Under the pieces are notes generated by a model. It ran no database searches. It was given only the letters and a program-made list of their open reading frames with translations, and was not told where the DNA came from. A stretch of 17,245 nucleotides of DNA from Gemmatimonadota bacterium (GTDB taxonomy: Bacteria; Gemmatimonadota; Gemmatimonadetes; Longimicrobiales; Longimicrobiaceae). The stretch lies in contig JAHWJJ010000026.1 in NCBI GenBank assembly GCA_019348475.1, forward strand, positions 1 through 17,245. Reading direction: 5' to 3'. Below, piece by piece: positions 12,089-15,346 of the stretch. Positions within the stretch are counted from its first letter, which is position 1. Each line of letters opens with the position of its first letter. A program made the translations under genes and the position numbers.

Positions 12089-12488
12089 CCGCTCCAGCCT
12101 GGGGCTCCGGGATTGGTCGATGCGAGCGCATCAATCCATCCCCCCGGACGCGATCCCGCAAGCCCGTATCCCGACACCGCCGCTCATGGAGCCGTGCGGC
12201 ACCGAACGCATGGCGGGTGCACACGTCTGACGCATCCAGATCGGCGCGGGCCCTGTTCGCGTGCCGGGGACCGCCTTCCGGCGCGCCGGCGTTCGGTTTT
12301 CCGCTCGTCCGCCGATCCCATTGCCCCTTCGCCGCACCTGAGGGGATGATGGCTTCTGCTGCATTCCAGATGAATTCCGCCGCGATTCCGTCCAGATCGG
12401 GACAGCCGCGTTGCCGGTGTGTACGGCACGTGGCGGTGTTCGCACGCGGTCTTTTCTGGCCGCTCGGGGTGTGGATAGCTTCGCGCCC
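12089..12488. other. Gene-free divergent intergenic region
   Basis: Four hundred bases between the divergent YgjV-type and PIN genes. It contains a compact inverted repeat: GATGCG (12119-12124) with CGCATC (12127-12132), flanked by GGATT (12110-12114) and AATCC (12133-12137), about 30 bases before the minus-strand start, possibly an operator. Near its right end TAGCTT (12476-12481) with TTTTCT (12452-12457) could be a weak promoter that would make the PIN transcript nearly leaderless. Nothing else is evident. Confidence 0.4.
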
Positions 12489-12968
12489 ATGCCAAAATCA
12501 ATCGTGTACATCGAAACCACGGTTCCCAACTTTTATTACGATCTGCGCTCCAGCGCAGCAGTGACCTCTCGCCGTTTCTGGACGTGCGAGTGGTGGGCCT
12601 CCGCGGCAGCGCGGCACGATCTCATTACGAGTGAGGAAGTGCTGCTGGAACTCTCGGCAGGAACAAGCCACCTCGTGCCACTTCGGCTCGCGCTTCTGGA
12701 CCATATCCCGGTATTGCAGATTACGCCGGCGGTGATCGAAACGGCCGAGACGTACATCCGGCACAAGCTCATGCCGGGACGTCCTAGCGGTGACGCATAC
12801 CATCTGGCGCTTGCGTCGCATCATGGATGTGACTTTATTCTGACCTGGAACATCAGGCACCTGGCGAATCCCAACAAGCTCGCACACGCCAGGCACATGA
12901 ATCAGCGACTCGGCTTGCCGCTCCCGCAAGTCGTTACACCGCTGGACCTGCTGGGGAGGATGCGATGA
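12489..12968 (+). CDS. PIN-domain toxin, VapC-like
   Basis: A 159-residue PIN-fold ribonuclease-type toxin. It belongs to the subgroup that begins YIETTVPNF (7-15), where E9 replaces the usual first aspartate, and has the TSRRFWTCEWW segment (26-36). The other acidic residues are E50 or E54 after LITSEEVLLEL, D102 in SGDAYHLALAS, and D115 in CDFILTWN with the N121/H124 of NIRHLAN. The C-terminal tail ends VVTPLDLLGR. Such toxins cut tRNA or mRNA and are held inactive by an antitoxin. No Shine-Dalgarno sequence precedes ATG 12489. It overlaps the following antitoxin-like gene by ATGA (12965-12968), and its last codons double as that gene's ribosome binding site. The toxin comes before the antitoxin, the reverse of classical vapBC. 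Base composition is lower in GC than in neighbours, suggesting acquisition. Confidence 0.88.
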   Translation: MPKSIVYIETTVPNFYYDLRSSAAVTSRRFWTCEWWASAAARHDLITSEEVLLELSAGTSHLVPLRLALLDHIPVLQITPAVIETAETYIRHKLMPGRPSGDAYHLALASHHGCDFILTWNIRHLANPNKLAHARHMNQRLGLPLPQVVTPLDLLGRMR

Positions 12969-13189
12969 ACAACCCGACGGACGAGGCGTGGACCGAAGCC
13001 GACGATATCATTGAGGAGGTGCGGGAAATCCGCCGGAAGATCTCCGCCCGCTTCGATGACGACCCGGTGAAGCTGGGCGAGTTCCTCATGGAGAGCCAGA
13101 AGCGGCACGGGGATCGGCTGGTTTATCCGGGCACCCGTTCCACCGGCACCTCCACCGGTCGGGACGCAGTGCGCCGCCCGACATCGTGA
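12965..13189 (+). CDS. Antitoxin-like protein, copy 1
   Basis: A 74-residue acidic, helical protein. Residues 8-53 carry the repeated core: AWTEADDIIEEVREIRRKIS, RFDDDPVKLGEFLMESQKRHGDRLV. Small proteins of this kind next to PIN genes are presumed antitoxins; there is no obvious DNA-binding domain. The ATG overlaps the toxin stop by four bases, and GGGGAGGA (12953-12960) within the toxin's last codons is its ribosome binding site, so the two are coupled. The last 18 residues (after YPG) are Thr/Arg-rich and differ from the other two copies, where the frame runs into the remnant of the next unit. Confidence 0.75.
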   Translation: MNNPTDEAWTEADDIIEEVREIRRKISARFDDDPVKLGEFLMESQKRHGDRLVYPGTRSTGTSTGRDAVRRPTS

Positions 13190-13216
13190 CGCCGCTGGAA
13201 CTGCCAGGGAGGAATG
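13177..13216 (+). pseudogene. Remnant of a PIN toxin 3' end
   Basis: In one frame this reads IVTPLELPGR, equivalent to the ending VVTPLDLLGR of the intact toxin at 12925-12962, and the DNA retains its AGGGAGG ribosome binding site. The rest of the toxin gene is absent. It shows that the repeated unit included the toxin's tail as well as the antitoxin. Confidence 0.7.
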
Positions 13217-13486
13217 ATGTGTGATCCCGTGGAGGAAGCGTGGACTGAGGCTGATGACGTGATCGAGGAGGTCCGGGAGGTCCGCCGCCAGATTTCCGCC
13301 CAGTTCGATGATGACCCGGTGAAGCTCGGCGAATATCTCATGGAGAGTCAGAAGCGGCACGGTGACCGGCTGGTGGACCCGGGAGCAATGCGGAAACGGA
13401 ATTCCGCTGCCTGGTGCCACTGCTGCTGGACTCCTGGTCCCGAAATTCGTGACGCCGCTGGAGCTGCCGGAGGACCTGATGTGTGA
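13217..13486 (+). CDS. Antitoxin-like protein, copy 2
   Basis: An 89-residue paralogue of the preceding gene with the same core (AWTEADDVIEEVREVRRQIS and DDDPVKLGEYLMESQKRHGDRLV). The offset to copy 1 is 252 bp. I prefer ATG 13217 over the adjacent ATG 13214 because the spacing from AGGGAGG (13206-13212) then matches copy 1, and because copy 3 begins with the same MCDP. The tail after residue 56 (MRKRNSAAWCHCCW) is Cys/Trp-rich and overlaps the remnant of the next unit, so it is probably a run-on rather than a selected domain. Whether it can neutralise the toxin is unknown. Confidence 0.65.
   Translation: MCDPVEEAWTEADDVIEEVREVRRQISAQFDDDPVKLGEYLMESQKRHGDRLVDPGAMRKRNSAAWCHCCWTPGPEIRDAAGAAGGPDV
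13440..13478 (+). pseudogene. Second remnant of a PIN toxin 3' end
   Basis: This reads VPKFVTPLELPEDL, again equivalent to the toxin's C-terminal tail, and includes GGAGGA (13469-13474) four bases before copy 3's ATG. Here the remnant is in the same frame as copy 3, so an upstream start could produce a tail-antitoxin fusion. Confidence 0.65.
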
Positions 13487-14141
13487 TCCGATCGACGGGG
13501 AGTGGACTGCGGCCGACGACGCGATTGAGGAAGTGCGGGAGATCCGCCGGCAGATCTCCGCGCGGTTCGATCATGATCCGGTGAAGCTGGTGGCGCACTA
13601 CATGGAGCGTCAGAAGCGCCATGGCGACCGGCTGGTCGATCTGGAGGGATTGCGGAAGAGGAATTCCGCTACGTCGATGCGCGCTTCAACGGCGCGGGGT
13701 GAGGCGCTGGACCGCTGGCGCGCGCGATCAAGAACCACATGGATGAACCTGCCCCAGGCCGAGTCCGCGGAGCACTGCCCCTGGCTTCGGATGCGCATGG
13801 CAAACGGCTGGTACCAGCCGAGACGTGTGAAACGGACTCGACCGCCGGCGAGCCGGTGCGGATCACCGGCCTTGCGCGCTCCATCCTCCGCGGTTATCGT
13901 TTCGGCCGCACCCGCAGGGGTGCCGCGGCGAGTTGCAGCGATTGCTCCGCGTTACAAATGTGCTAAACCGCTCGCGGGGCCTCCGCAGCGGAACGTGCTG
14001 CGAGGCCCCGTTCGTTTTGAGATGACTGGATCCCGGCCCGGGGGCAGCCCCGGGCGGCGCGAGCGCTTTGACCGACAGCTTGGCGGGCTCGCACCAGCAA
14101 CGGGGAATCGCCTAAAGCGTCGCACGGGCCCGCCGTCCTGA
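13479..14141 (+). CDS. Antitoxin-like protein, copy 3, with run-on frame
   Basis: The third copy of the unit, 262 bp after copy 2. Residues 1-56 keep the core (EWTAADDAIEEVREIRRQIS and DHDPVKLVAHYMERQKRHGDRLV), with more substitutions than between copies 1 and 2. The frame then stays open for another 164 residues with no recognisable domain. It passes through the hairpin at 13975-14010 and the metK leader, and stops inside the loop of the metK terminator. That makes the long C-terminus very unlikely to be a real protein domain; the original gene probably ended near 13670 and has lost its stop. The gene could be decaying. Confidence applies to the N-terminal part. Confidence 0.45.
   Translation: MCDPIDGEWTAADDAIEEVREIRRQISARFDHDPVKLVAHYMERQKRHGDRLVDLEGLRKRNSATSMRASTARGEALDRWRARSRTTWMNLPQAESAEHCPWLRMRMANGWYQPRRVKRTRPPASRCGSPALRAPSSAVIVSAAPAGVPRRVAAIAPRYKCAKPLAGPPQRNVLRGPVRFEMTGSRPGGSPGRRERFDRQLGGLAPATGNRLKRRTGPPS
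13671..13974. other. Probable decayed sequence without a clear gene
   Basis: Several frames are open, including a 75-codon forward frame beginning MDEPAPGR at 13739, but none has a ribosome binding site or a family I recognise. The segment follows the third antitoxin-like copy and precedes a terminator. A lower-GC patch at 13951-13967 may include promoter elements for the metK leader, but no box pair with good spacing was found. Confidence 0.35.
13975..14018 (+). terminator. Intrinsic terminator after the antitoxin array
   Basis: CGGGGCCTCCGCAGC (13975-13989) pairs with GCTGCGAGGCCCCG (13997-14010), 14 bp with one bulged base and a 7-base loop, followed by TTCGTTTT. It probably ends transcripts from the toxin-antitoxin region and insulates metK. 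Confidence 0.7.
14037..14054 (+). other. Short GC hairpin in the metK leader
   Basis: CCCGGGG (14037-14043) pairs with CCCCGGG (14048-14054) around a GCAG loop. It sits just upstream of the candidate aptamer and may be an accessory stem, or chance in GC-rich DNA. Confidence 0.35.
14059..14125 (+). ncRNA. Candidate SAM-type riboswitch in the metK leader
   Basis: Upstream of metK the RNA can form stem P1 (GCGAG 14059-14063 with CTCGC 14088-14092), an inner hairpin (CCGA 14072-14075 with TTGG 14080-14083, loop CAGC), and a pseudoknot of CGCTTTG (14064-14070) with TAAAGCG (14113-14119). The linker contains CAGCAACGGGG. The segment 14081-14091 can instead pair with 14125-14135 over 11 bp (two G-U), opening the terminator that follows. 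Folding of P1 therefore favours termination, an OFF switch, as expected for a SAM-controlled synthetase gene. The order of strands resembles the SAH riboswitch and, more loosely, SAM-II; it lacks the SAM-I core. Pairings are seen in the sequence; ligand and class are inference. Confidence 0.55.
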
Positions 14142-14160
14142 CCGACGGCGGGCCCTTTTT
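14126..14160 (+). terminator. Intrinsic terminator before metK (attenuator)
   Basis: A perfect 12-bp stem, GGGCCCGCCGTC (14126-14137) with GACGGCGGGCCC (14144-14155), 6-base loop and TTTTT (14156-14160). It lies only 34 bases before the metK start codon, so transcription must be able to pass it for metK to be expressed. This is the strongest terminator in the window. Confidence 0.9.
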
Positions 14161-14194
14161 GCGCTATCCCACCATCCACGTACCGGGAAACCCG

Positions 14195-15346
14195 ATGAGC
14201 ACCCTCCTGTCCGAGACCGAAACCCAGGCGCCGGCCGCCGTGACCTACACGTTCACCTCCGAGTCGGTGAGCGAAGGGCACCCCGACAAGGTGTGCGACG
14301 CCATCGCCGACGCCATCCTGGACGCGCACCTGGCGCAGGACCCGGCCAGCCGCGTGGCGTGCGAGGTTCTGGTCAAGGAGAGCCACGTGGTGCTGGCCGG
14401 CGAGATCACCAGCAACGCCACGGTCGACCACGAGGCGGTGGTGCGCCAGACCATCCGCGACATCGGCTACACCGACGCGGACCAGCCCTTTCGCGCGGAC
14501 GACGTCAACATCATCTCCTTCCTCTCCGCCCAGGCAGGCGAGATCGCGCAGGGGGTGAACGCGCAGACCAGCCTTTCCGGCGATCAGGGCGCGGGCGACC
14601 AGGGGATCATGTTCGGCTACGCCACCGACGAAACGCCGGAGCTGATGCCGCTCCCCATCCTGCTGGCCCACCGACTGGCCCGCGTGCTGGCCGGGCACCG
14701 CAAGGCGGGGACGGTGGAGTGGCTGCGCCCGGATAGCAAGACGCAGGTGTCCGTCGTGTACCAGGGGAACACGCCGGTGGCGGTGACGGACGTGCTGGTC
14801 AGCACCCAGCACACCCCGGAGGTGGACCGCGACACCATCCGGCACTTCGTCGCCACGACCGTGATCCCCGAGGGGCTGGACGGCTGGTACCACGACGAGC
14901 TGAAGATCATGGTGAACCCCACGGGCAGCTTCGTGCAGGGCGGACCCTCGGCGGACGCGGGCGTGACGGGGCGCAAGATCATCGTCGACACGTACGGCGG
15001 CGCGGGGCGGCACGGGGGCGGCGCGTTCAGCGGCAAGGACCCCAGCAAGGTGGACCGCAGCGGCGCGTACTTCTGCCGCTTCGTGGCGCGCGAGATCGTC
15101 AAGGCGGGGCTGGCGCGGCGCGCGGAGGTTCAGGTGGCGTACGCCATCGGCGTGGCGCAGCCGGTGTCGGTCAAGGTGGACACCTTCGGCACGGGCGACG
15201 CGGCCGCGGCGGCGGAGTTCGTCAAGACCGGCTTCGACTTTCGCCCGCGAGCCATCATCGAGCGGCTGAACCTGCTGCGGCCCATCTACAGCCAGACGAC
15301 GAACTACGGGCACTTCGGCAAGCCGGAGCTCCCCTGGGAGGGGTGA
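14195..15346 (+). CDS. metK: S-adenosylmethionine synthetase
   Basis: A 383-residue cytoplasmic enzyme that makes S-adenosylmethionine from methionine and ATP, releasing phosphate and diphosphate. Length and all signatures fit the bacterial family: SEGHPDK (26-32) with H29 at the active site, signature 1 GAGDQGIMFGY (132-142), signature 2 GGGAFSGKD (274-282), and the C-terminal domain ending NYGHFGKPELPWE. The normally acting tetramer needs Mg and K ions. Start: ATG 14195, because the conserved TFTSESVSEGHPDK segment follows at the usual distance; an upstream in-frame codon lies inside the terminator and cannot be used. The short leader after the terminator has only a weak GGGAAA (14185-14190). 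Expression is probably controlled by the attenuator described above. Its product feeds the histidine methyltransferase EgtD encoded nearby on the other strand. Confidence 0.98.
   Translation: MSTLLSETETQAPAAVTYTFTSESVSEGHPDKVCDAIADAILDAHLAQDPASRVACEVLVKESHVVLAGEITSNATVDHEAVVRQTIRDIGYTDADQPFRADDVNIISFLSAQAGEIAQGVNAQTSLSGDQGAGDQGIMFGYATDETPELMPLPILLAHRLARVLAGHRKAGTVEWLRPDSKTQVSVVYQGNTPVAVTDVLVSTQHTPEVDRDTIRHFVATTVIPEGLDGWYHDELKIMVNPTGSFVQGGPSADAGVTGRKIIVDTYGGAGRHGGGAFSGKDPSKVDRSGAYFCRFVAREIVKAGLARRAEVQVAYAIGVAQPVSVKVDTFGTGDAAAAAEFVKTGFDFRPRAIIERLNLLRPIYSQTTNYGHFGKPELPWEG

Follow-up and report, generated by a model that had tools for sequence, protein, structure and literature searches.

Riboswitches of the SAM-II type (RF00521, named SAM_alpha in Rfam) and of the SAM-V type are the closest described relatives of the RNA analysed here, and within their shared architecture OFF control by termination is ordinary, according to the text available of PMC9373788 and PMC2258182. 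In the SAM-V crystal structure, as given in the available part of PMC6061858, SAM is held by U8, U9, U20, U47, A48 and A50; U10, U19, A49 and G21 are further members of the triple helix, and A18 is the partner of A50. The SAM-II binding mode is described in the same text as virtually identical to that of SAM-V. Tandem arrangements have also been reported: the accessible text of PMC9481103 gives 44 examples of tandem SAM-II, in some of which each aptamer has a terminator behind it, and SAM-II/SAM-V tandems are likewise in print there. The string 'Gemmatimon-' is absent from the main text of that paper, in the version available to us, and a search of the open-licence literature, judged by title and the start of the abstract, found no SAM-II riboswitches in Gemmatimonadota or Longimicrobium.

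The window, by which we mean the whole 17,245-nucleotide stretch of Gemmatimonadota DNA that was analysed, carries metK on its + strand, preceded by two RNA elements that we call E1 and E2. On comparative sequence grounds, E2 is very likely a divergent SAM-II-type aptamer with its terminator, and the second of two tandem attenuators before metK.

Tandem elements in the metK leader

The metK gene (14195..15346, + strand) encodes S-adenosylmethionine synthetase, with a TIGR01034 match of 511 bits and three S-AdoMet_synt Pfam domains; at least two MetK matches occur in 13 of the 21 genomes of the window's family. E1 and its own terminator (13922-14011) lie upstream of E2 and had been missed by the initial annotation. 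E1 itself (13922..13974, + strand) is a SAM-II aptamer and the first in the tandem. It scores 31.4 bits (E 7.4e-7) with R3, a model whose training set was 17 SAM-II RNAs from the phylum, with E1 and E2 left out; 15 of the 17 lie above the RF00521 cut-off and the other two are metK leaders at 35.1 and 28.1 bits. With RF00521 the window's E1 reaches 17.6 bits, below the cut-off of 36, and the E1 of relatives reaches 21–25 bits in 5 of the 17 loci scanned, also under that cut-off; E1 was also absent from the RF00521 matches obtained genome-wide at E <= 0.1. R3 detects E1 in all nine tandem leaders (E <= 2.9e-4).

The E1 pattern was found in 18 of 30 metK loci, nine of which have E2 behind it. The E2 pattern was found in 9 of the 30; these nine belong to the set L001-L014, 14 loci that all come from the window's family. 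Both elements, each followed by a hairpin, are thus present in 9 of these 14 metK loci, as in a tandem riboswitch, and the other five leaders are E1-only.

The hairpin behind E1, T1 (13974..14011, + strand; -31.9 kcal/mol), is followed by TCGTTTTG. T2, the intrinsic terminator of E2 (14126..14160, + strand), consists of a 12-bp stem at 14126-14155 and then TTTTT, as the initial annotation had described it. A consensus scan of 13800-14230 found T2 as its one terminator, with 0.5 expected, and this stricter scan did not report T1. By our own scoring, which at times extends the stem through the T-run, at least four T are present in the 8-base tail of T1 in 7/9 tandem leaders and of T2 in 5/9; a clear U-run after T2 is absent in L011 and L013. 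The T2 tails with fewer than four T, in 4/9 leaders, count against an explanation by serial attenuators.

A scan of 13800-14230 in the window gave no sigma-70 consensus; in some relatives (e.g. L006, L007 and L010) TTGAC together with TATCAT or TATACT hexamers can be seen by eye upstream of E1. Further upstream in the window, the region 12411-13670 holds a PIN-domain gene (12411-12968) and then three copies of a 194-nt repeat (starting at 12963, 13215 and 13477), the outer copies sharing 72% and 78% identity with the middle copy and the small ORFs in the second and third copies looking alike. At 723-1194 there are two 206-nt direct repeats, 92% alike, adjoining copies of a 47-nt repeat (9, 692 and 956).

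Fold and covariation of E2

The E2 aptamer (14056-14122, + strand) is predicted to fold as a SAM-II-type pseudoknot. P1 joins 14056-14064 with 14087-14095 (+ strand) over nine columns, one of them a C-A mismatch in the window, and among 14 distinct E2 homologues changes on both sides are seen at six of the nine pairs. The P1 of the initial annotation (14059-14063/14088-14092) was exact in its pairing and proved to be the inner part of this longer helix. P2 is composed of two segments on the + strand: P2a (14082-14086 with 14108-14112), with 97.1% of cells paired and two of five pairs covarying in E2 alone, and P2b (14073-14076 with 14119-14122), with 92.7% of cells paired and one of four pairs covarying. 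The 5′ strand of P2 lies in the P1 loop, directly before the P1 3′ strand, which is the H-type pseudoknot arrangement of SAM-II, and it is with the strand immediately before the P1 3′ strand (P2a) that the 3′ segment of E2 covaries.

Over the 18 pairs of P1, P2a and P2b together, 95.9% of cells are paired, compared with 84.3% in shuffles and 37–48% when the strands are slid, and 26 cells carry double changes, as against 6.0 in shuffles. Folding of 14030-14165 (136 nt) gave a z-score of -3.02, with 2/200 shuffles equally good. The core, UUUGA ... CAGCUUGG ... CCUAAAGCG, is nearly invariant while P1 is free to change. In alignment A2 this invariance arises partly by construction, since the loci were collected with patterns that fix the core letters; the searches with the E2 model R2 and with an out-of-family profile, described below, are less affected by this bias. 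The loose candidate pattern was unspecific, its reversed control matching many of the 395 genomes, and selection was then made by helix pairing. Comparison of homologous sequences establishes the predicted fold and its conservation, as well as the tandem order and the terminator hairpins of the metK leader.

An 8-bp hairpin, P0 (14036..14055, + strand), abuts P1 of E2. P0-like stems of at least 5 bp and no more than 1 nt from P1 occur in 9/17 E2 copies (14% in shuffles) and in 17/18 E1 copies (12% in shuffles), the shuffles preserving base composition only. L3 is 12 nt long in the window and ranges from 6 to 41 nt across 17 copies; a stem inside L3 is found in three of these (G076, G079 and G081; loci L096, L099 and L100) and in neither the window copy nor the 13 others. 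A conserved, AUCCGG-like linker motif (14031-14035) may pair with CGGA-like letters at 14101-14105 in L3, which would enclose P0 and P1. Over nine leaders this helix is too weak to claim, with -8.9 kcal/mol for native, -8.3 for swapped and -6.3 for shuffled partners (sd 2.5).

Putative SAM pocket and model scores

By our own mapping, the UUU of L1 (14067..14069, + strand; alignment A2) corresponds to U8, U9 and U10, the third strand of SAM-V (PMC6061858, available part), and CUAAAG (14112..14117, + strand), identical in 15/15 rows of A2, covers the positions of C46, U47, A48, A49 and A50. Every one of the 15 A2 rows has the same SAM-contact letters (UUU, UUG and CUAAA), as expected of a SAM-II member, this correspondence being again our own mapping. 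The A18 position is a C in 15/15 A2 rows and likewise in 15 of the 17 training SAM-II RNAs. The second E2 copy of genome G168, which is the sixteenth copy, reads GUUUGG at the SAM-contact core.

The kinship with SAM-II was further assessed on P2a in a pool of 57 sequences, 25 of them distinct (17 E2, 17 SAM-II, 18 E1 and 5 other SAM-II-like elements). Pairs 1–4 were formed in 91% of cells, compared with 60% when the partners were dealt anew, and none of 2000 shuffles reached as high a value. The same test was significant for SAM-II alone (2/2000 as high) and for E2 together with the five others (0/2000), and not significant for E2 alone (106/2000) or E1 alone (960/2000). The second P2a pair is G-C in 17/17 E2 sequences, C-G (12) or U-A (5) in SAM-II, C-G in E1, and A-U (3), C-G or G-U in the five other SAM-II-like elements. 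Since the third pair is often mismatched in the two other groups, in 8/17 SAM-II and 13/18 E1 rows, a long P2a sets E2 apart.

Covariance models recognise E2 poorly. When 14052-14126 was compared with all of Rfam, no family matched at E <= 10, and on 13900-14300 SAM_alpha, located on E1, was the sole riboswitch family; in the latter scan, matches to seven sRNA or miRNA families, at 11–19 bits against cut-offs of 50–80, overlap with E2 or its terminator. The scans of the window returned neither the SAH riboswitch (presumably RF01057) nor the SAM/SAH riboswitch (RF01727), and no match to SAM-V (which we take to be RF01826) or to long-loop SAM-II fell on E2. Among 20 related loci no Rfam family exceeded its own cut-off. 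R3 yielded two fragments only on the window's E2, at 4.5 and 4.0 bits (E 5–7, chance level), and fragments of 7.6–12.2 bits at some E2 copies of 17 related loci.

Because E2 falls short both of the RF00521 cut-off of 36 bits and of recognition by the phylum-trained R3, we use the term SAM-II-type for it and leave it outside RF00521. The poor R3 match is likely explained by spacing: from the start of the P1 3′ strand to UAAA there are 26 nt in the window's E2, as against 18–19 in the three SAM-II rows L118, L051 and L036 of alignment A4. The covarying pairs, the SAM-II neighbour, and where UUUG, AGCUUGG and CUAAA stand with respect to the helices together argue for a SAM-II/SAM-V architecture of E2.

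Distribution, mechanism and comparison with described systems

Model R2, which includes the window copy, listed 40 matches at E <= 1. We count 16 of these, all at E <= 1.7e-6, as E2 copies, present in 15 of 395 phylum genomes; the other 24, at E >= 0.012, were excluded. Ten of the 16 copies lie before metK, nine of them behind E1; the remaining one, in G319, precedes metK (TIGR01034 463 bits) in a 3-kb locus in which R3 found no E1. Four copies (G076, G079, G081 and G110) are located upstream of an uncharacterised protein family without a known SAM link, which counts against a SAM-switch explanation. In G110, E2 stands behind an E1-like element (RF00521 27.8 bits) with a short ORF in between, and G168 has two E2 copies.

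Sequence searches across genera indicate that E2 is conserved beyond the genus. A profile built out of family, from eight E2 copies (seven from genomes of five other genera, the eighth from a record that gives no family), recovers the window copy at 14062-14122 with E 2.2e-12, the next match in the window being at E 5.3; it also finds the other eight tandem leaders (E <= 3.6e-10) and no E2 in the remaining five of L001-L014. An E2 pattern scan of genome contigs from 84,980 species, a set that may leave out close relatives of the window, returned six stretches, all from Gemmatimonadota or a subgroup of it, and viral contigs gave no E2 match. As for SAM-II proper, RF00521 matches at E <= 0.1 in 53/154 genomes of the order, with 17 above cut-off, and in 2/14 control genomes, none above cut-off. 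The window's own genome has an RF00521 match above cut-off (C334:4448-4521, L130) ahead of a gene of metH type, whose product carries S-methyl_trans and Pterin_bind domains; this use of SAM-II by the organism counts for the SAM-II-type reading of E2.

The family found behind E2 in four genomes, which we label 'FRPxxY', has an LDFRPASY-like start and no Pfam match; it has 256 homologues, and of the 120 listed those with a name are called 'hypothetical protein'. Proteins of this type are encoded at L059:922-1584, L060:1606-2286 and L096:1245-1970, with a look-alike at L097:2-595. The last, from G261, resembles the family by eye, stands behind two SAM-II-like elements and is absent from the family-search matches. 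The family was rejected as a general partner of E2, an E2-like pattern being present within the fetched locus for only 4 of its 19 matches, which come from 15 of 395 genomes. SAM-II matches of 41–45 bits, above the Rfam cut-off, also precede AAA-ATPase genes near 1482-1565 of L032, L036 and L057; AAA_5 was tested in L036 only, the genes of L032 and L057 being alike by eye, and in these two loci a second, weaker SAM-II match lies upstream.

We propose that the metK leader acts as two serial transcription attenuators, each a SAM-II-type H-pseudoknot with a terminator hairpin within a few nucleotides. When SAM is plentiful, it would sit in the major-groove triple of P2, formed by the UUU of L1, the UU of the P2 strand and the UAAA of the 3′ strand, and would keep both P1 and P2 closed; the terminator could then form and metK would be off. 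Under SAM shortage, the 3′ strand of P1 in the putative apo fold would be free to pair with the 5′ arm of the terminator, allowing read-through. Two gates in series may make repression steeper and deeper. The antiterminator that had been suggested initially (14081-14091/14125-14135) is complementary in the window (-23.6 kcal/mol), and coevolution was not seen: over 16 loci native partners, at -20.8 kcal/mol, showed no advantage over swapped ones at -20.4, and the element is hence unproven.

The initial annotation had modelled E2 as an aptamer akin to the SAH riboswitch that had turned SAM-sensing, closed by a pseudoknot between 14064-14070 and 14113-14119. The letters can indeed pair in the window, and the seven pairs are formable there and in most homologues (98% of cells); however, among 14 distinct homologues five of the seven pairs are invariant, two homologues each break one pair, and the count of covarying pairs is zero, the same as in 500/500 shuffles. 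Since the 3′ segment covaries with the SAM-II-type partner instead, and the Rfam scans returned no SAH riboswitch, the proposed kinship falls away and we regard this model as scarcely credible. It is somewhat less far-fetched, though still improbable, that E2 is a protein-binding or constitutive attenuator without a ligand: ligand binding does not follow from a strong terminator and RNA conservation alone, but the SAM-pocket nucleotides stay invariant while P1 varies, and E2 has a SAM-II neighbour and a metK context.

A further possibility is that E2 has kept the SAM-II fold and responds to another ligand or to another range of SAM. It would then be a separate class derived from SAM-II in Gemmatimonadota, with a ligand or sensitivity of its own. 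Together with the standard SAM-II element it would gate metK by two inputs or two thresholds, and elsewhere it would control the uncharacterised family. The lengths of P1 and P2a, which are consistently unlike those of SAM-II, and the four copies before that family would fit such a class, and SAM-I variant aptamers have switched ligand to spermidine (PMC10853860, available text). E2, however, retains the reported SAM-contacting nucleotides, whereas altered contact positions are reported in the same text for the spermidine variants, and metK lies downstream of 10/16 copies. We consider this reading unlikely, if the least unlikely of the three, and prefer a SAM-binding, SAM-II-type E2.

The initial annotation holds in so far as metK is preceded by a conserved attenuator with a pseudoknot, which probably senses SAM and acts as an OFF switch; covariation bears out P1 and not the pseudoknot as drawn. 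OFF control by termination is ordinary in the SAM-II/SAM-V architecture, and tandem SAM-II is already published. What is new is E2 as a sub-type, together with the range of genomes that carry it. With E2 the SAM-II fold takes in a sub-type missed by the curated model, a hint that SAM-II control has been undercounted in the phylum, and where E2 occurs away from metK the uncharacterised protein family is possibly SAM-regulated. The nine tandem leaders beside five E1-only leaders among 14 loci constitute a natural test of what the second gate contributes.

Compared with described systems, E2 is closest to SAM-II (RF00521). It shares the strand order, with P1, an L1 that contains UUUG, a P2 strand flush with the P1 3′ strand, L3, and a P2 3′ strand ending in CUAAA, and also the SAM-contact nucleotides, the terminator platform and a SAM-metabolism gene; it differs in having no Rfam score, a nine-column P1, a 5-bp P2a and a frequent P0 hairpin. 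The long-loop form of SAM-II (RF01726), which has enlarged loops and is recorded from Bacteroidetes and marine samples in the accessible text of PMC2864571, did not match E2 at E <= 10. With SAM-V, E2 shares the H-pseudoknot core and the SAM pocket (PMC6061858, available part), and the P3 stem that SAM-V carries in L3 has a counterpart in the three E2 copies with an L3 stem and none in the window copy; unlike SAM-V, E2 appears to act through a terminator and not through control of a ribosome site, it has no Rfam match, and L3 of the window copy folds without a pair. Like the published SAM-II tandems (PMC9481103, accessible text), the metK leader places two SAM switches serially before one gene; unlike them, its second aptamer belongs to a sub-type without an Rfam match.
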